21,846 nt of DNA from a virus. Of the stretch, positions 4,135-18,111 are shown in pieces. Under the pieces are notes generated by a model that saw nothing but the letters and a program-made list of their open reading frames with translations, searched no databases and was not told the origin of the DNA. Each line of letters starts with the position of its first letter. Position 1 is the first letter of the stretch. A program made the translations under genes and the position numbers. The stretch covers positions 1 through 21,846 of IMG/VR virus record IMGVR_UViG_3300019776_000866, one strand, 5' to 3'.

Positions 4135-4416
4135 TCACGCGTTCTTGCGTTTGGCCGGCAGCGGTGCTGGCGCGGTGGCTGCCTGCTCAGCGGTAGCTCG
4201 GGCTTCGACCTGCTGCCAAAGCTCACGGAAGTCCAAGGGCAGGTGGACGCGCCCGTTGTTTGCAGCAATGTACTGCCGCATCGCGTCCAACGCCCACCGG
4301 AGGACCTGGACAGCGTCGACGCCGTAGGTGGCAGCGACCTCAACAAGCCAATCGCGATCCGCTTTTGGAATCCGAGCGGAGAACACGACGGTCTCTTGGG
4401 CGTTCTTTTTTGGCAT
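4135..4416 (-). CDS. ribbon-helix-helix regulator, Arc-like (93 aa)
   Basis: Residues 9-50 fit the ribbon-helix-helix fold: an alternating beta strand (VVFSARIP, 10-17), helix A (about 18-32), a YGV turn, and helix B (about 34-50). The arrangement closely follows phage P22 Arc. RHH proteins dimerise and insert the strand pair into the DNA major groove. The tail (51-93) is charged, then Ala/Pro-rich, ending in lysines and arginine. I chose the ATG at 4414-4416; a GTG at 4425 would add three residues. It diverges from a second RHH gene across a perfectly centred dyad (4432-4491), so it probably represses its own promoter, the rightward early promoter, or both. Confidence 0.75.
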   Translation of the reverse strand: MPKKNAQETVVFSARIPKADRDWLVEVAATYGVDAVQVLRWALDAMRQYIAANNGRVHLPLDFRELWQQVEARATAEQAATAPAPLPAKRKNA

Positions 4417-5384: not shown

Positions 5385-5750
5385 ATGCCAGCCCGCCGCA
5401 CAGGCAGACCGGCAAAGCCGGTGTACAGCCCAGAGGAGGTCGCCGACCTCTGTGAGCTGCCTGTCGCCATCGTGCTGCGCCATCTGCGCGCACCGGGCCG
5501 TTCTTTTTTTCCAGGCGCATGGGAGGAGTCAGACGGTCACTGGCGGGTCCCTGAAGATGGCGTGCGCGCCTTCATGGGCCGCCGCATCGAGCGCCACTAC
5601 AGCCTCCAGAGCGTCGCCGAGCTGCTGGAACTCTCCTACGACCACGTCTGGCGCACCGTGAAGGCCCAGCGACTCGCGGTGGAGGTCGCCGGCACGCAGC
5701 GGGTCCCCGAGTCCGCGATCCTCAAACTCATCTCCCGGAAGTTCGCATGA
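5385..5750 (+). CDS. tandem helix-turn-helix DNA-binding protein (121 aa)
   Basis: The start at 5385 follows AGGAGG (5369-5374) by ten bases. Two HTH units of the excisionase/MerR-like kind (helix_turn_helix_17 style) stand in tandem. The first is residues 14-65, with YSPEEVADLCELPVAIVLRHL and a wing ending in RVPEDGVRAFM. The second is residues 72-117, with YSLQSVAELLELSYDHVWRTV and a wing ending in RVPESAILKLI. Each repeat has the sequence order helix, turn, recognition helix, beta wing with a conserved RVP[ED]. Internal duplication is therefore likely. It may be a regulator or a small terminase-like DNA recogniser; the early position favours regulation. Confidence 0.7.
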   Translation: MPARRTGRPAKPVYSPEEVADLCELPVAIVLRHLRAPGRSFFPGAWEESDGHWRVPEDGVRAFMGRRIERHYSLQSVAELLELSYDHVWRTVKAQRLAVEVAGTQRVPESAILKLISRKFA

Positions 5751-6445
5751 GCCGCCGCGCACCAGCCGATTCCCCGCCCCCTCTTTTTTTGCCGAGCAGG
5801 ATCGAAGAGGAACGAAAGGCACGTGGTGCCGAGCTGGATCTGGGCCTGCCGGACATCGCGGAGTCGGAAACCGCAGCGCACAAGCGAGGGCAGTTCACCG
5901 GGGAACATCTCTGGACCCATGACAAGGCCCGCTACGACGCCATCGTGCAGAGCCTCGCGGCCCGGAAGCCCATCCGCTGGATCACCACCACCTACCGGGT
6001 CAGCGCCCACACCGTCTTCGCCATCCGGGATCGCGAGGGTTCGGAGATAGCAACACGGAAGGCCACCCTCGCCAGCCGCATGCTCGACGCGGCGGAACTG
6101 GCAGTGGAGCGGGCGATCGACAAGATCGACGACCTGCCGGCTGACAAGGCTGCCATCACGGCCAGCGTCCTCACGGAGCGAGCCCGGGAACTCCTCGGAG
6201 AGGCCGACAGCATGCGCCATACCCACGTGCACGTCGGCATGACCATGGACCAGTTCGCCGACCTCCTCAGAACCGGTTCTGTCGGCGAGGAAATCTCCGC
6301 TCCGCGGCCCGCCCGCGGCTCCGTCGTCGACATCGATCCGGCACCGGCCGCCGCCCCCGCTCCGGCCCTGAACCCGTCTGCAGTTGATATGGAATCAACC
6401 GCGAAAGGACCGCTTTCCGTTGAATTTCAGCCAGTTAAAAAATGA
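5747..6445 (+). CDS. HTH-domain early protein, possible terminase small subunit or regulator (232 aa)
   Basis: ATGA overlap with the upstream gene; a partial GGAAG precedes the start. Residues 1-55 are an acidic, Pro-rich leader. Residues 63-97 look like a helix-turn-helix (DAIVQSLAARKPIRWITTTYRVSAHTV is split here as helix 64-72, helix 76-83 and recognition helix 86-95). Residues 105-153 are a long helical region with Ala, Glu and Arg that could oligomerise. The C-terminal tail (185-232) is Pro/Ala-rich. An HTH plus helical oligomerisation core also describes many terminase small subunits, and none is evident beside the large subunit. I keep both options; the distance from the large subunit (about 4 kb) is a point against. 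Confidence 0.6.
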   Translation: MSRRAPADSPPPLFLPSRIEEERKARGAELDLGLPDIAESETAAHKRGQFTGEHLWTHDKARYDAIVQSLAARKPIRWITTTYRVSAHTVFAIRDREGSEIATRKATLASRMLDAAELAVERAIDKIDDLPADKAAITASVLTERARELLGEADSMRHTHVHVGMTMDQFADLLRTGSVGEEISAPRPARGSVVDIDPAPAAAPAPALNPSAVDMESTAKGPLSVEFQPVKK

Positions 6446-6636
6446 CCTCGCCGATATCATACCCAGATCCCGCACCCGACAGGGTCGGCCCGGTAAAAAC
6501 CCGACCCGCCGCGCGCGCCTTCCCGGGCGGATTGACCGGGCGCGCAGGCCCGGCCGCGCGCACGGGGGGGGCGGGGGTCGGCCGGCCGGCGGACCTTGTT
6601 CTTAATGTCCGGTCACCAAGCGGGAAATTTTTTGCC
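6446..6636 (+). other. 191-bp GC-rich structured region, probably non-coding
   Basis: The frame stays open from an ATG at 6442, but the encoded 65 residues are almost wholly Pro, Gly, Arg and Ala, unlike a folded protein. The DNA contains inverted repeats: GGGTCGG (6482-6488) with CCGACCC (6501-6507), and GCGCGCC with GGCGCGC around 6511-6544. It also has a run of eight G (6564-6571) and alternating GGCC blocks, followed by an AT-richer stretch just before the next start. It could be a leader with strong RNA structure, a regulatory site, or an accessory replication element. Confidence 0.45.
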
Positions 6637-7032
6637 ATGACTGAACTCGAAATCTCCATCGTCACCGGCATCAGCCGGACGGATCTGGCCCGGTTCCGCC
6701 GGGACCGCCTCGACCCGGGCCTGTATGTGAAAACCAAAGCGGGGATCACATACACGGCCGCCGCCCTCGACCAGCTTGCCGCCAATTTCGGCCTGAAAAA
6801 AATAGAGGCCCCCCCAGCCGCCGGGACCGCCGTGACCCTGACCATCAGGCGACACTGCCTGAACCCGAAGATCCTCGAATGCTCGGACGGCAAGCGCCAC
6901 GACCTCCGTCTGCAGGTGCGCGACAGCAGCGCCTTCCGCCCCGGCCAACTGGTCGAGGCAATCGCCGTCGACGCACTCCACGGCCTTTACGCCCTGAGCG
7001 GCCCCCAACCCCGTCCCCGACACATCGCATGA
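6637..7032 (+). CDS. small winged-helix-like early protein, unknown (131 aa)
   Basis: I prefer the ATG at 6637, where the composition becomes protein-like; an ATG at 6442 overlapping the previous stop would add 65 low-complexity residues. Residues 1-52 look like an HTH with a short wing (TELEISIVTGISRTDLARF, then a Tyr-containing strand and helix ALDQLAANF). Residues 64-120 are beta-rich (KILECSDG, then LRLQVRDSSAFRPGQLVEAIAVD), possibly an OB- or KOW-like small barrel. It sits directly before the exonuclease and replication genes with an ATGA overlap, so a replication or recombination accessory role is plausible but unproven. Confidence 0.65.
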   Translation: MTELEISIVTGISRTDLARFRRDRLDPGLYVKTKAGITYTAAALDQLAANFGLKKIEAPPAAGTAVTLTIRRHCLNPKILECSDGKRHDLRLQVRDSSAFRPGQLVEAIAVDALHGLYALSGPQPRPRHIA

Positions 7033-7622
7033 ACACCCTCAATCTCCTAGCCATCGACCTCGAGACCGGAGGCCTCGACCCGACGGTCCACCCCATCCTG
7101 TCGATTTCCGCCGTCCCCGGGTGGGATGCCAAACCGTTCCACCAGCTCGTGCTCCCTAAGGAGGGGGACTGTCTCAACCCGGAGGCCGTCGCAGTGAACG
7201 GATACGATCGGAACGCTTGGGTCCAGCTCGGCGCGATCCCGATCGAGGAGGCCCTCGAGCGCTTCCGCCTCTGGCTGCTCGAGCGGCCTGCCGATGTCCC
7301 GGTGGCGGTGCCGCTGGCGCACAATGCCGCCTTCGACTCAGCCTTCCTGCTCCGCTACGGAGCCGTCAAGATCCCCGCCCTCAGCAGCCGCTGGGAATGC
7401 AGCAGGGCCGCCCTGCTGGTCGCCCAGCGCGCCGGGTTGGTCCGCAGGGGTGGAAGTAGCCTCGATCACCTGGCTTCGCTGGCAGGCCTCCCTGCGCGCG
7501 GCGCAGTGCACTACGGTCCCGAGGACGCCCGGCTCTGCCTCGACGGCTACCGCTGGCTCCTCCGTAAATTCCGCCCCTCCCTGCTGCGCCGCGTGGCCGC
7601 AGCCATCCTGCCTATCCGATGA
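7029..7622 (+). CDS. DEDDh 3'-5' exonuclease (DnaQ-like)
   Basis: All three exonuclease motifs of the DEDDh/RNase T/DnaQ superfamily are present. Exo I has AIDLETGG with D10 and E12. Exo II has HNAAFDSAFL with D103. Exo III has HYGPEDARL with H161 and D166. These residues bind two metal ions and hydrolyse DNA or RNA from the 3' end. At 197 aa it is a bare exonuclease domain without a polymerase. The start at 7029 forms an ATGA overlap with the previous stop. Its position before the replication protein and helicase suggests proofreading or end-processing during phage replication. Other family members act on RNA, so the substrate is uncertain. Confidence 0.85.
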   Translation: MNTLNLLAIDLETGGLDPTVHPILSISAVPGWDAKPFHQLVLPKEGDCLNPEAVAVNGYDRNAWVQLGAIPIEEALERFRLWLLERPADVPVAVPLAHNAAFDSAFLLRYGAVKIPALSSRWECSRAALLVAQRAGLVRRGGSSLDHLASLAGLPARGAVHYGPEDARLCLDGYRWLLRKFRPSLLRRVAAAILPIR

Positions 7623-8617
7623 GCAACGCCATCCTCACCAGAGCATACCAGAGCACAGTGACGAGCCCGACCGACATGGCAGTGCTGGCCTCCCTCGCCG
7701 ATCAGGCGAACGATGACGGGATCTGCTGGCCATCGGTGGGCAGCCTGAGCCGCCGCACCCGGCTGGGAGAGAGGACGGTCCAGATGTCCCTGCGGCGCCT
7801 CGCCGCCGCCCGCCACATCAGCACCACCGGCTACGTGGCAGGTGGTGCCCCCCGGCAGACTCCCACCTACGTGGTGCATCCGGTTGTTCCTGCCATAGCG
7901 ACGGGTGCAGGAGATGCACCCGTGCAGCACATGCACCCCTCTACGGGTGCACCAGATGCACCCGTGCAGCAGCTGCACCCCTCTACGGGTGCAGGAGATG
8001 CACCCCACGGGTGCACCAGCTGCACCCCACGGGTGCAGGAGCTGCACCCCACGGGTGCAGGAGCTGCACCCGAACCCTCATTGAACCATAAAGAACCCTC
8101 AGAGAACCCTCATGCGGGCACGTGCGCGGACGCGAGCGCCCGCGCACACGCACGCGAGGGAACCTCTGTTCTTCTGGACGTCGATCGTTTGCCAAAAAAA
8201 TCGAAGGGGGGCGCGGGCGCGCCGACGGTCGAGTGGGACGGCGCTGGCTTCCGGGTGCCACCGCTGGTGCTGGCTGAGTGGCGTATGGCCTTTCCCGCCC
8301 TCGACGTGTCCGGTGCCATCCGGGCCGCGGCCGCATGGGTGACCGACAATCCCAGCCGCGCTGGCAAGAAGCAGTGGGCGCGCTTCCTCCTCAACTGGCT
8401 CAAGCGCACCCGGCCCGGCGAGTCTCCGCCGCCGTCAGACGACGCGGATCCGCTGCCGCCGATGGTGACGGGACCTGACGACGGCCCGCCTGGATGGCAG
8501 GCGGCATACGAATCGATGTACGACCACGCCCCGACAGTGCCGTGGTCGAGGCAGATTGCGGACGTCCAGCTCGAATGCCGTCAGTGGCTCAAGAAATCGG
8601 AGAGGGGGGCCGCATGA
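7619..8617 (+). CDS. HTH replication initiator-like protein containing an iteron array (332 aa)
   Basis: The N-terminus (about 18-75) is the winged-helix type (HTH_36-like) found in phage replication initiators: MAVLASLADQANDDG, then WPSVGSLSRRTRLGERTV, then a second helix and a wing. Residues 95-185 are a low-complexity linker rich in Gly, Ala, Pro, Thr and His, encoded by the iteron array at 7903-8071 and the phased repeat after it. The C-terminal domain (about 205-330, with WRMAFPALDVSGAIRAAAAW and FLLNWLKR) resembles helicase-loading C-terminal parts of phage replisome organisers. It lies directly upstream of the DnaB-like helicase with an ATGA overlap. This parallels lambda O, whose gene also holds the origin. 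The role is inferred from domain and context. Confidence 0.8.
   Translation: MSNAILTRAYQSTVTSPTDMAVLASLADQANDDGICWPSVGSLSRRTRLGERTVQMSLRRLAAARHISTTGYVAGGAPRQTPTYVVHPVVPAIATGAGDAPVQHMHPSTGAPDAPVQQLHPSTGAGDAPHGCTSCTPRVQELHPTGAGAAPEPSLNHKEPSENPHAGTCADASARAHAREGTSVLLDVDRLPKKSKGGAGAPTVEWDGAGFRVPPLVLAEWRMAFPALDVSGAIRAAAAWVTDNPSRAGKKQWARFLLNWLKRTRPGESPPPSDDADPLPPMVTGPDDGPPGWQAAYESMYDHAPTVPWSRQIADVQLECRQWLKKSERGAA
7903..8071 (+). repeat. iteron array, candidate replication origin
   Basis: Six 19-bp units of GGGTGCA-N5-TGCACCC start at 7903, 7945, 7987, 8009, 8031 and 8053. Two degenerate units with CCGTGCA as the left half start at 7920 and 7962. In total there are fourteen exact copies of the 7-mer (either orientation) in 169 bp. 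The N5 spacers are only ggaga, ccaga, ccagc or ggagc. The last four full units are 22 bp apart, close to two helical turns, and 22 is not a multiple of three, so the units pass through all three reading frames. The DNA, not the peptide, is therefore what is conserved, as expected for initiator-binding iterons. Confidence 0.85.
8072..8112 (+). repeat. helically phased GAACCCTCA repeats next to iterons
   Basis: GAACCCTCA occurs at 8072, 8093 and 8104, with a variant GAACCATAA at 8083. The four copies are spaced 11, 10 and 11 bp, about one helical turn each, so all face the same side of the DNA. They begin immediately after the last iteron and are less GC-rich than their surroundings. They may be a second protein-binding array or part of the DNA-unwinding element. 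Confidence 0.7.
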
Positions 8618-10347
8618 ACGGGATCAGCGATGCGATGCAGGGTGAGCAGGCCGTGCTGGGTGCGATGCTGCACTCCCCTGACATTGCGCTTCCGGTGGCG
8701 ATTGACCTCCTGACGGCGACGGACTTCGGGTTCCCTCTTCACCAGAAGGCGTTCGAACTGATGCGGACGATGGCGAACGCGGGGCAGCCTGTGGACGCGA
8801 CCACATTGGCGATCAGGATGATGGATGCGCAGCTGCTGGAGGGCCGCGAAGTCGGAGTGGTCACTGATTGGCAGTCGGCCTGCCCCAACCCCGGGAATGT
8901 CAGGGAGTACGCGCGCCTTGTCCGTGGGAAGGCGCGACGGCGGGAGTTTCTCGGCCTGCTCGATGATGCCATCCGCAAAATCGGCGAAGGCGCGGAGACG
9001 GAGGAGGAATTCCGGGCCGTCATGGAGGGCGTGATGGCTGGATCGGAGCGGCTGCAGGCGACAGTGATGCACACCCATCGAGGACTGCGGAGTGGTGGCG
9101 ATGCGCTCGCGGAGGTGGCGACGGCCATGGCGGAGCGATTCCGGCACCGCGGTCAGCCCCTCGGGTTGGCGGTCGGCCTCGCCGACGTCGACCGGGTGGT
9201 CAACGGGTTCCAGAAGCAGGATCTTGTCATCATCGGCGCACGCCCGGCGATGGGGAAAACGAGCCTGGGGGCCGGCATCGCAGAGGGTATTGCCCTGGAC
9301 GCAGCCAACCGACGCAACATCCCCGTCCTGATGGTGACTCTGGAGATGAGCGATGCGCAGATCATGGAGCGCATGATCCTCGGCCGGTGTGAGATCAAGT
9401 ACTCGAAGGCCCGCACTGGAATGTTCAGCGATTGCGAGGGTGCGATCTGGGCAGCGGCACAGGAAGCCCTGTCCGCCCGGGCCGGAAAATCGGGGCAGGA
9501 CATCAAGATGGAAATCTTCGACCTTGCCGTCGAGAAGCTCCAGGCAAAATGGGAGCGCAAGGGCCGGATGGTCCCGGATGCCGCCAATCCGGTGACCAAC
9601 ACCGAGGTCAAGGAAAGCGGTGAGCAGATCCAGATGATGGCCGAGAAGCTCGCCGCCGTTGCCACCGGAATGCTGACGTTCTATGACAGCTACGGAGCGA
9701 CGACGCAGGAACTGAGGACGGTGATTGGTCAATGGGTCCGGAAAATCGGATGGACGGCAGATGCCGGAGACCTGTGCCCACCGGTAGTGATCATCGATTA
9801 CATCCAGCTCATCAAGCCGAGCGAGAAGGCGAACCAGCGGGAGAAACGGATGGCGATCGAGGAGGCCTGCGCAGTACTGAAGGGACTGGCCAAGAGGCAC
9901 AACATCGTCATCGTCGGCCTCGCCCAGGTGGGGCGATCGGCCGCGGACAACCCGGGCCAGAAGCCTGCGATGAAAGACTTCAAGGAATCCGGCGCGATCG
10001 AGGAGTACGCCGACGTCCTCATGTCTCTGCACCGCGACCCGTACTACAAAAAATGGGAGAAGCTGGGGGACGAGGCAAAGGAGGCGTGGGAGAAGCGCGC
10101 CGGATTCCGGAATCGAGAGCCAGCGCATGAGCAGCTCGGCGAGCCGGAGTGGGACGGCCAGTCCTACTACGAGGCCCAGGCCACGCTGGAGATCCTCAAG
10201 GGGCGGAATGTGCCGACCGTCGAGATCCCCATCCTGTTCCACGGGAAGCACATGAGGTTCAGCTCACTCACCCCTGCACTCTACTCCAACAATCCCGACA
10301 AACGGCAGAAGCCGCAACAAACCGAAGAACAAAACCTCGACTTCTAA
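8614..10347 (+). CDS. dnaB-like: replicative DNA helicase, DnaB family
   Basis: A RecA-fold hexameric helicase that unwinds DNA 5' to 3' at the fork. The N-terminal helical domain (about 1-110, starting near EQAVLGAMLHSPD) is typical of DnaB. Walker A is GARPAMGKTS (208-217), the Walker B/H2 segment is DYIQLI (395-400), and the DnaB motifs QVGRSAA, KDFKESGAIEEYADVLM and HRDPYY follow. At 577 aa it is about 100 residues longer than usual. Much of the excess lies between Walker A and B (about 425-480 nt beyond the motif, roughly residues 275-355), where a Lys/Glu/Ala-rich insertion occurs. The start overlaps the upstream stop (ATGA) and has GGAGAGGGGG before it. Partner of the replication protein upstream. 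Confidence 0.95.
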   Translation: MNGISDAMQGEQAVLGAMLHSPDIALPVAIDLLTATDFGFPLHQKAFELMRTMANAGQPVDATTLAIRMMDAQLLEGREVGVVTDWQSACPNPGNVREYARLVRGKARRREFLGLLDDAIRKIGEGAETEEEFRAVMEGVMAGSERLQATVMHTHRGLRSGGDALAEVATAMAERFRHRGQPLGLAVGLADVDRVVNGFQKQDLVIIGARPAMGKTSLGAGIAEGIALDAANRRNIPVLMVTLEMSDAQIMERMILGRCEIKYSKARTGMFSDCEGAIWAAAQEALSARAGKSGQDIKMEIFDLAVEKLQAKWERKGRMVPDAANPVTNTEVKESGEQIQMMAEKLAAVATGMLTFYDSYGATTQELRTVIGQWVRKIGWTADAGDLCPPVVIIDYIQLIKPSEKANQREKRMAIEEACAVLKGLAKRHNIVIVGLAQVGRSAADNPGQKPAMKDFKESGAIEEYADVLMSLHRDPYYKKWEKLGDEAKEAWEKRAGFRNREPAHEQLGEPEWDGQSYYEAQATLEILKGRNVPTVEIPILFHGKHMRFSSLTPALYSNNPDKRQKPQQTEEQNLDF

Positions 10348-10648: not shown

Positions 10649-12403
10649 ATGGACCGCGCCGCTCTCGTTGCTGCACTGTCCGACGGCCGTCTGCCGCAGA
10701 CAGAACACCCGGTAGTGCCACTGCTCACGGTGGATCGACTGCGGTCGATGCCTGTCGAGCAGGCATTCCAGCTCTGGCAGAAGCGAGAGGAAGTGATCGC
10801 GGCGGAGGCGCGCGATCCGCTCCGCTACGGTCACCGGCCCCGAATGTGGCGGACGGCCGATGCCGTCATCGCCGAAATGCGTCAGCGCTCGCCGCGTCTG
10901 GTGCTGGAGCTGCTGGCACTCGGCGGCAACCGCGCGGGAAAGACGGAGTGGGCAGCCCGCTCAGTCTGCGACATCCTCACCAATCGTCCGAAATCGGTGG
11001 TGTGGTGCCTGCACGCCAAGGAGGACAGCAGCCGAGCAATCCAGCAGGCACGGATCTTCAAGTACCTGCCGGCCGAGTGGCGGCCCGCGTCCGGGAAACT
11101 GAAGAAGAGCCGCACGGTAAAGCTCAACTACAGCGAGGCTGGTGGATTCACCGAGAACATGTTTGCCCTTCCGAACGGGTCGAAGTGCTACTTCAAATTC
11201 TACAGTCAGGATGTGCGCACCGTGGAAGGGGACGAACTCGACGTTGTCTGGAGCGACGAGCTGGTGCCACTGGACTGGGTTGAGGCCATGAAGCGCCGAC
11301 TCGCGTCCCGGGCCGGCTTGCATCTCATCACCTTCACCCCCATCGAAGGCTACAGCCCCACGGTCAGCTACTTCCTGAATGGAGCGGTCGCCACCGAAGA
11401 GGCCCCGGCTGAGCTGCTGCCGATCGCTGGACCCGGCGGCACGATCGCCGGCCATGAGATGGTGCCGCTTGTCCAGAGGTGCCGCGAAGCAACCAAGTCC
11501 GTGGTCTACTTCCACACGAAGGACAACCCCTATGGACAGGCGTACGAGACCCTCGCCGCGATGGCGAAGAACGCCGGTCGCAACGAGATCAAGGCCAAGC
11601 TCTACGGCATCCCCACCAAGGTTCGCGGTGCCAAGTTCCCCAGCTTCCGGCCCTCCCTCGGGGTGCACCTCTGCCGAAGGGATGACCTCCGCCACCTCTG
11701 CCCCCGTGGCACCGACTACCACGTCGTCGACCCATGCAGCGGCCGGAACTTCTACATGCTGTGGGCGCGGGCCTGCGGGAATCGCATCTACATCCTTTCG
11801 GAGTGGCCAATGCCGTCAGAGTACATCCAAGGGATAGGGCTTCCGGGCCACTGGGCGGAGCTGAGTCAGGATGGCAAGAAGCTCGACGGCCAGCGGGGCG
11901 AGGCACAGCAGCCTTTTGGATTCGGGATCCGCAGGTACATCGAAGAGTTCGAGCGCAAAGAACGCTGGTTGGCCCGCGACGTCCTCGAAATGCCTGATGA
12001 CTCAACGCTCGATCCGGAGCGCATCATGGACAGCCGGTTTGGTGCGTCGCCCACTCAGACCAAGGAAGGCCGAACCACGCTCATCGATGAGTTCTCCGAC
12101 GAGGGAGTCGACTTCGAACCCGCCTCCGGAGAGCATCAGGATGAAGGCTGGCAGCTCATCCACGACGCGCTGGCCTACAACGAGGCCGAACCGGTCAGCA
12201 GCCTCAACGCACCAACGCTGGTGATCTGCGAAGACTGCGAGAACCTGATCTTCGCGCTCACCCACTTCACCGGCGCAGATGGGGCGCACGGGGCATGCAA
12301 GGACCCTATCGACGTGCTGCGCTACCTGCTCCTTGCCAAGCCGGTCGACGCCAACAGCGCCGACTACCGCCAGCCCCGGCGGCCCAAGGGAAGACTCTAC
12401 TGA
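10649..12403 (+). CDS. terL: terminase large subunit (packaging ATPase and nuclease)
   Basis: It powers DNA translocation into the procapsid and cuts the concatemer. The ATPase domain has Walker A GGNRAGKTEW (92-101) and Walker B with DVVWSDE (198-204; D203 and E204 as the acidic pair). The C-terminal RNase H-like nuclease begins at DYHVVDPCSG (356-365), with D361 the likely first metal ligand. Further acidic candidates are D461 in IMDSRFGA and D555 in KDPIDVLRYL. The length of 584 aa is normal for the T4 gp17-like/Terminase_6 class. It starts 2 nt after the previous stop with no SD. No obvious small subunit is adjacent; the gene that follows is only 65 codons long. Confidence 0.92.
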   Translation: MDRAALVAALSDGRLPQTEHPVVPLLTVDRLRSMPVEQAFQLWQKREEVIAAEARDPLRYGHRPRMWRTADAVIAEMRQRSPRLVLELLALGGNRAGKTEWAARSVCDILTNRPKSVVWCLHAKEDSSRAIQQARIFKYLPAEWRPASGKLKKSRTVKLNYSEAGGFTENMFALPNGSKCYFKFYSQDVRTVEGDELDVVWSDELVPLDWVEAMKRRLASRAGLHLITFTPIEGYSPTVSYFLNGAVATEEAPAELLPIAGPGGTIAGHEMVPLVQRCREATKSVVYFHTKDNPYGQAYETLAAMAKNAGRNEIKAKLYGIPTKVRGAKFPSFRPSLGVHLCRRDDLRHLCPRGTDYHVVDPCSGRNFYMLWARACGNRIYILSEWPMPSEYIQGIGLPGHWAELSQDGKKLDGQRGEAQQPFGFGIRRYIEEFERKERWLARDVLEMPDDSTLDPERIMDSRFGASPTQTKEGRTTLIDEFSDEGVDFEPASGEHQDEGWQLIHDALAYNEAEPVSSLNAPTLVICEDCENLIFALTHFTGADGAHGACKDPIDVLRYLLLAKPVDANSADYRQPRRPKGRLY

Positions 12404-17100: not shown

Positions 17101-18111
17101 ATGCCCGCCCTGACTGAACCAAATACCCCGCTCAAACGCGAGGACCTCGGTGACGAACTCACCATTGTCGACCACAAGACTTGCCCATTCTCGTCCATGG
17201 TGGCGAAGAAGGGACCGCCCAACGACTCCATCTTCTACTACCCAGTGGACGACTACGCCTCGCCAAAGACCGGCGGGCGTGCCGACGGTGCCGACGTAAC
17301 GGCCGGGGAACTGACGAACGGCACCGAGAACATGAAGAAGCTCGGGGCCTGCATCCAGTGGTTCCACCGCGCCGTCGGCATCGGGAAGATCGCACAGACG
17401 GTGCCGAACGTCGCTGGAGTCGGTAAAGGGAAGCTCCTGAGCCGGGCCATCAGCAAGAAGCTGGTCGAACTGAAGCGCGATCATGAGTATCAATTCCTGT
17501 CATCGCGGGAATCCGTCCAGGACAACGGCACCGTTGGTTACGAGACCCGCGGCATCGGCCGCTGGATCCAGACCGGCGCGCAGTCGCACCTCCCTGTGGA
17601 TGCCGCGTACCGGGCCCAGGCCGGCGCAGTGGTGACGGTGACTGCCATTACGGATTTCACCGAGGCGCACCTCAACGACATGCTCGAAGCCATGTTCGGT
17701 GTCACCGGCTCGAAGGACCTCATCCACGCGTTTGTCACCACATCCCTCAAGCGTGTGGTCACGAACTTCCGGAACATCGTTTCGAACTCGGCCGGCACCA
17801 CGGTGCTGCGCCGCTACAATGACGACCTCAAAGCCACCACGCTGAAGAACGTCGTGGATGTCTACGAGGGGGATTTCGGCCGCGTGGTGTTTACACCGGT
17901 GCTGTTCCTTGACCCGACAGTCGCCACCGGAAACGCCCCAAAACAGCATGGGTACTTCCTGCACATGGACCGATGGCATACACGGAACCAGCAAAGCCCT
18001 GGCGCGGAAGACCTGCCAAACGGTGGCGGCGGCCCGAAGAAGCAGATCGATGCGATCTGCGCTCTCGCCTGCGATAACCCCAAGGGAGAGGGCAAAGTAC
18101 AGCTCGCCTGA
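17101..18111 (+). CDS. major capsid protein, SU10/DUF5309-like
   Basis: It forms the HK97-fold icosahedral shell. Segments with the family look are the N-terminal region ending in CPFSSMVAKKG (compare TPF-type segments of this family), GADVTAGELTNGTENMKK, then a hydrophilic loop and the helix LSRAISKKLVELKRDHEYQF, whose ELKRD-type helix is characteristic of SU10_MCP (DUF5309). The 336-aa length fits. A short A-rich leader (CCAAGAAA) rather than an SD precedes the ATG. The order scaffold, capsid, small protein, connector supports the call. Confidence 0.85.
   Translation: MPALTEPNTPLKREDLGDELTIVDHKTCPFSSMVAKKGPPNDSIFYYPVDDYASPKTGGRADGADVTAGELTNGTENMKKLGACIQWFHRAVGIGKIAQTVPNVAGVGKGKLLSRAISKKLVELKRDHEYQFLSSRESVQDNGTVGYETRGIGRWIQTGAQSHLPVDAAYRAQAGAVVTVTAITDFTEAHLNDMLEAMFGVTGSKDLIHAFVTTSLKRVVTNFRNIVSNSAGTTVLRRYNDDLKATTLKNVVDVYEGDFGRVVFTPVLFLDPTVATGNAPKQHGYFLHMDRWHTRNQQSPGAEDLPNGGGGPKKQIDAICALACDNPKGEGKVQLA

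Follow-up and report, generated by a model that had tools for sequence, protein, structure and literature searches.

The window, by which we mean the whole 21,846-bp stretch of viral DNA analysed, very probably carries a lambda-type phage replication origin inside the gene of its own initiator; protein binding, melting and origin activity are the parts of this reading that we infer. At the level of the sequence itself, we demonstrate a two-part DNA architecture, selection that acts on DNA over peptide, covariation between the residues of a helix and the letters of the sites, and a low-GC valley at the second of the two parts. These parts are an array of eight iterons (7903-8071) and, directly adjoining it, a block of AACC repeats (8072-8112). 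A lambda-O-like origin embedded in its initiator gene had been proposed in an earlier sequence-only reading of this DNA, and it is supported here, on comparative grounds, as the best reading. The AACC array is absent from that earlier account.

The initiator gene and its iterons

The initiator gene (7619-8617, plus strand) encodes an O-like protein of 332 residues, laid out as a winged helix (residues 1-90), a disordered linker whose codons hold the putative origin DNA, and a C-terminal domain. Residues 16-67 match Pfam HTH_36 (PF13730) with an E value of 1.1e-9 and 38.4 bits against a curated cut-off of 25, and residues 1-166 match the PHROG profiles phrog_1032 (replication initiation protein, E 4.3e-19) and phrog_391 ('replication initiation O-like', E 6.1e-17). 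Apart from HTH_36, a Pfam scan with E values up to 0.1 gave a weak match to RP-C and nothing else, the lambda O model being absent; the protein would work like lambda O but by Pfam falls outside the lambda O family. AlphaFold predicts a confident winged helix for residues 1-95 (mean pLDDT 90) with its recognition helix at residues 51-63. In the full-length model the linker and the C-terminus are of low confidence, and residues 94-214, which are encoded by the iteron array and the AACC block, have a pLDDT under 50, i.e. they are predicted to be disordered. Assigning the protein to a family by its fold proved unworkable, given that the structure matches point to a generic winged helix and to no single family: RNA polymerase III subunits (Z 9.7), the CRP DNA-binding domain (Z 8.9, rmsd 1.5 Å over 62 residues) and the plasmid initiators 4pt7/4pql (Z 8.2). 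Among proteins of solved structure, the DnaD-type initiation protein 2vn2 is the best match by sequence (E 5e-5).

The gene sits in a replication cluster. Its start is overlapped by a 3'-5' exonuclease-like gene (RNase_T; 7029-7622, plus strand), and its stop is overlapped by the ATG (ATGA) of a gene for a DnaB-type replicative helicase (8614-10347, plus strand; Pfam DnaB and DnaB_C; PHROG 'DnaB-like replicative helicase', E 3e-74). Further along the same strand, past the replication genes, come those for the terminase large subunit (10649-12403) and an SU10-type major capsid protein (17101-18111, Pfam E 8e-38). The GC skew of the window dips no more than weakly near 8 kb, a local minimum on which we place no weight, and a megablast search of 5385-10347 against phage records gave no match.

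Six of the eight iterons are exact copies of GGGTGCA-N5-TGCACCC, namely iterons 1 (7903-7921), 3 (7945-7963), 5 (7987-8005), 6 (8009-8027), 7 (8031-8049) and 8 (8053-8071), the last of which adjoins the AACC block. Iterons 2 (7920-7938) and 4 (7962-7980) have a degenerate left arm with two mismatches each. All eight lie inside the initiator ORF and no other gene of the record has any; indeed, no further site with up to three mismatches occurs anywhere in the 21.8 kb, and 100 shuffles at the same tolerance gave 2.06 sites on average and six at most. The distance from TGCA to TGCA is 9 bp in 8/8 iterons, and the start-to-start spacings are 17, 25, 17, 25, 22, 22 and 22 bp. Between 7903 and 8005 the 17/25-bp alternation forms a 42-bp supercycle in which every second unit has a weak left arm, and the remainder is a regular 22-bp array.

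Taken in order, the six exact iterons fall in reading frames 2, 2, 2, 0, 1 and 2. The first three of them (iterons 1, 3 and 5) are 42 bp apart and share one frame, and the last four (starting at 7987, 8009, 8031 and 8053) are 22 bp apart and rotate through all three frames, as the sequence-only reading had described. When the codons of the initiator gene were permuted synonymously 5000 times, exact sites averaged 0.20 and peaked at three, against the six observed. Given that the frame changes while the motif is kept, these results bear out the claim that selection acts on the DNA and not on the peptide. The remaining description of the locus held as well: the six exact and two degenerate units were recovered by motif search at 7903-8071 and nowhere else in the record, the array lies in the linker of an HTH replication-protein gene, and this gene is directly upstream of a DnaB-type helicase gene.

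The eight 19-bp dyads are what is expected of a lambda-type locus, i.e. inverted-repeat iterons of about 19 bp within the initiator gene. The 19-bp double half-site had been considered distinctive, a claim that we do not uphold: the iterons of lambda, which are bound by O dimers, are also 19-bp inverted repeats (PMC5043065, PMC7466680), and the GGGTGCA/TGCACCC-type motif of the window recurs in other phages. The distinctive part of the locus looks to be the AACC block adjoining the iterons. Among the relatives, several have iteron units with only one good arm. The near-identical contigs L009 and L010 differ (at ~4290-4370) by one 21-bp iteron unit, a shift of copy number that stays in frame. 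Vibrio phage H20, also a relative, has perfect 24-bp in-frame repeats (CCGAAAACGGTACTTTGAATAGGC; L007:3296-3415) instead of dyad iterons, followed by AACC units.

The AACC block

The block directly 3' of the last iteron reads GAACCCTCATT GAACCATAAA GAACCCTCAGA GAACCCTCA (8072-8112, plus strand), and we propose it as the duplex-unwinding element. AACC occurs at 8073, 8084, 8094 and 8105, at spacings of 11, 10 and 11 bp and in alternating frames. With protein similarity as the sole criterion, 164 distinct relatives were picked; of these, 119 have three or more AACC units spaced 9-13 bp apart, on the coding strand only. Runs of this kind appeared in ~7% of synonymous permutations, in 0.2% of shuffled sequences and in none on the reverse strand. 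The other 45 relatives lack a run of three, many of them having two units or hitting a contig edge. The consensus unit is GAACCRTCA, repeated three to five times, and 11 bp is the modal spacing (193 of 304 spacings, with 12 bp in 80 and 10 bp in 29). Among the carriers are prophages of Pseudomonas, Comamonas, Stenotrophomonas, Xanthomonas, Roseovarius and Rhodococcus, as well as a Verrucomicrobia bin.

Selection on the peptide can be rejected as the cause of the block. The units occupy more than one reading frame in 116 of the 119 loci, and among the closest relatives a near-identical stretch of DNA translates as APEPSLNHKEPSENP in the window, HPNPHRTQREPSRNP in L009 and GTQTLIEPKENPQRT in L011; at the sequence level, this comparison demonstrates that the DNA has been kept while frame and peptide changed. 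The association also holds in reverse: when viral contigs were scanned with the iteron-AACC junction pattern, protein information being left unused, an HTH profile was found in the same ORF in 75 of the 80 listed loci. Among the five exceptions, one (L052) belongs to a short ORF and the remaining four are no more than 150 bases from the end of a contig.

Over its first 45 bp, the block has a GC content of 0.445 across 107 loci, compared with 0.65 for the iterons, 0.61 for the DNA downstream and 0.598 as the gene mean, and it lies below the gene mean in 107/107 loci tested. This valley makes it a likely unwinding element. The window itself has an A+T region of about 40 bp at this position, with a GC content of 0.49 (8072-8116) against 0.69 in the iterons and 0.67 downstream, a local value, as a 45-base stretch at 8161 reaches 0.42 and the block is not the lowest point of the gene.

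Most AACC elements found elsewhere than in HTH_36 genes were dismissed, being simple repeats or lying in ORFs cut by a contig edge. Long AACCGT/AACCAT simple repeats from IMG/VR (L332, L344, L349, L353, L359, L411, L446, L475 and L499) are false positives of the AACC scan. Two loci (L336:6540-7316, minus strand, and L392:11507-12424) have tandem AACCATCAAGC at exactly 11 bp, apparently without dyad iterons, in genes for initiators or loader-like proteins from other families (phrog_5810, phrog_345, DnaD-like). Judging from such matches, the AACC element may not be confined to HTH_36 genes.

Tentatively, and with slightly less than even confidence, we suggest that the block is a sequence-specific opening element of a large, multi-phylum phage group, in which GAACCRTCA repeats spaced by ~11 nt would be read single-stranded, after melting, by the initiator or a partner; it would be the phage counterpart of the 13-mers in plasmid duplex-unwinding elements (DUEs). 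The block could instead be a double-stranded specific site for a second protein, such as a host factor or a helicase loader, or a helix-phased architectural element, with no part in unwinding. That GAACCRTCA is conserved in sequence, beyond mere A+T richness, and that its units are spaced by about one helical turn (10-12 bp, mode 11) would suit such a site. Nonetheless, we consider it unlikely, although it is the alternative that retains the most weight: it leaves aside the low-GC valley found at the block in every locus tested, the position of the block, which matches that of the 40-bp A+T opening region of lambda, and the number of repeats, three to five, which compares with the four single-strand-bound 13-mers of RK2 (PMC4081077). 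Moreover, no candidate second protein was identified.

Helix residues and half-sites

The outer arms of the iterons (GGTG...CACC) are widespread, and the inner letters vary even among close relatives: TGCA in the window, GTGAC/GTCAC in L009 and GCCAC in L011. Exact-5-mer dyad finding missed units with one weak arm, and half-site classes were therefore counted as 5-mers. In 98 non-redundant classifiable loci, the columns sharing most mutual information with the site class were 56, 53 and 55 of 89 profile columns, all within the predicted recognition helix (codons at 7769-7807, plus strand); residues 55-56 (Q and M in the window) are the proposed specificity residues. Loci with QR have GTCAC sites (18) or GTGGC (2), and those with QK have GTTC in 6/7. 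R followed by N, D, T, M, K or V goes with GGCA/TGCC sites, and Q followed by most other residues goes with TGCA, as in the window. Two residues are not the whole code, given that L009 and L011 are both QR and have different sites. Arg185 of CRP, which presumably lies at about the position of column 56, contacts the TGTGA half-site, and this half-site resembles the GTGA of the QR class.

This residue-to-site rule agrees with 86 of the 98 loci (permuted mean 33, maximum 48), a figure to be read with the caveat that the motif classes were defined after viewing the data, so that the hold-out alone is clean. In a tree from which the recognition-helix columns were left out, both members fit the rule in 18 of 25 independent pairs differing in motif. 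One such contrast is pL075/pL044, close neighbours (tree distance 0.04) with QN and TGCA versus QK and GTTC. For the hold-out, the rule was fixed in writing before further scans and applied to 90 non-redundant loci outside those used to build it, of which 45 could be scored, 19 were unclassifiable and 26 had residues beyond the rule; loci L113-L151 stem from an earlier scan in which they were neither used nor displayed. The rule was right in 40 of the 45 and wrong in five, against a permuted mean of 14.8 and a maximum of 26 in 20,000 permutations, with 12 of the 45 rows being QY, eleven of these with closely similar helices. We infer that the HTH protein reads the sites embedded in its gene, for which the covariation of helix and site is strong indirect evidence.

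Recognition and purpose are different matters, and the array could be mainly an autoregulatory operator at which the HTH protein represses its own transcription or blocks elongation, rather than a replication start. Dyads within the gene of the binding protein would arise likewise, covariation speaks for recognition and not for purpose, and the list of solved winged-helix structures is headed by transcription factors, CRP included. We hold this to be improbable. The sites begin about 280 bp into the gene and a scan of 7000-9000 found no sigma-70-like promoter; the conserved low-GC AACC block directly 3' of the array would go unexplained; and the PHROG matches are to replication initiators, with dnaB as the next gene. 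Considerably less probable still is a chain of mRNA hairpins (7-bp stem, 5-nt loop) that controls translation or termination and has an unstructured spacer in the AACC block. Every exact dyad could indeed pair with itself in RNA. However, the same scan found no terminator-like site, the single good arm per unit in several relatives does not suit a stem, and RNA pairing gives no reason for the letters of the arms to track amino acids 55-56. Neutral tandem-repeat expansion in a disordered linker, in keeping with the tandem units and with the one-unit difference between L009 and L010, which shows that slippage adds and removes copies, we discount almost entirely. It is contradicted by the link between motif class and helix residues, which holds for distant proteins and for hold-out loci alike, by dyads retained while frames rotate, and by the fixed junction with the AACC block.

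Proposed mechanism and comparison with known systems

Under the reading of a replication origin, dimers of the winged-helix initiator would fill the eight dyads, the inner bases of each half-site (here TGCA) being read by the recognition helix (here QM). Strain from the filled array could then open the adjoining 40-bp AACC block, at which the phage DnaB, the product of the next gene, would be loaded. By analogy with RK2 (PMC4081077), we conjecture that the AACC repeats are read as a single strand by the initiator or a partner. If this holds, the block would be constant while the iterons diversify with the recognition helix, giving modular origins, with a variable address and a constant door, both of them predictable from sequence.

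Origins embedded in initiator genes are classical, and for the related Pseudomonas phage MD8 a 2021 paper noted repeats in the O-like gene (PMC8508860). In the open-access literature, to which our search was confined, neither the AACC block, as a constant second element, nor the residue-to-site code turned up. The passages of the MD8 paper that we consulted make no mention of either (PMC8508860), and two papers on the replication of Stx phages mention HTH proteins and no iterons (PMC8044961, PMC8951638). Prophages commonly carry the HTH_36 O-like gene, usually with no annotation beyond DNA-binding or replication protein. By the two-part signature, i.e. iterons ending in CACCC or CCCC followed by AACC repeats, DNA alone suffices to place a candidate origin within ~200 bp. 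A simple code of two residues and a half-site would give natural initiator-origin pairs, allowing replication compatibility to be predicted and orthogonal replicons to be built, and the constant AACC block raises a testable question about duplex opening.

The closest functional parallel is lambda (NC_001416, our L312), in which the iterons lie inside gene O and the ~40 bp that follow them, which are A+T-rich, open when the template is supercoiled (PMC5043065, PMC7466680). Lambda and the window share an origin, putative in the window, in the initiator gene, at least four 19-bp inverted-repeat iterons, an A+T region of ~40 bp on their 3' side and an N-terminal DNA-binding part of the protein. 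They differ in the letters of the iterons and in the opening region, which in lambda lacks AACC repeats and in the window consists of sequence-conserved repeats. The partners differ too: lambda uses the loader P and the host DnaB, whereas in the window a phage DnaB gene comes next and no P-type loader is found there.

Nearer in sequence are the O-like proteins of the Pseudomonas phages MD8, LESphi3 and phi2, with 34-37% identity to the initiator over residues 1-164. All three phages have TGCACCC-type arrays at the same place as the window, with the AACC block next to them in LESphi3 and MD8. In contrast to the window, the units of this group mostly have one weak arm, and MD8 has a P-like protein instead of DnaB.

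Iteron plasmids offer the third comparison. Plasmid iterons bind monomers (PMC5043065) and the Rep proteins of plasmids contain a pair of winged-helix domains (PMC4081077), whereas a single HTH domain is recognised in the window initiator, which has one modelled winged helix, disorder, a low-confidence C-terminus and, as its one listed match to a plasmid Rep family, RP-C below threshold. Nonetheless, plasmids of the RK2 type resemble the window in that an initiator array adjoins a repeat-containing unwinding element. In RK2, the Rep protein TrfA binds one strand of the four DUE 13-mers sequence-specifically, and altered 13-mers disturb binding and stop replication (PMC4081077).
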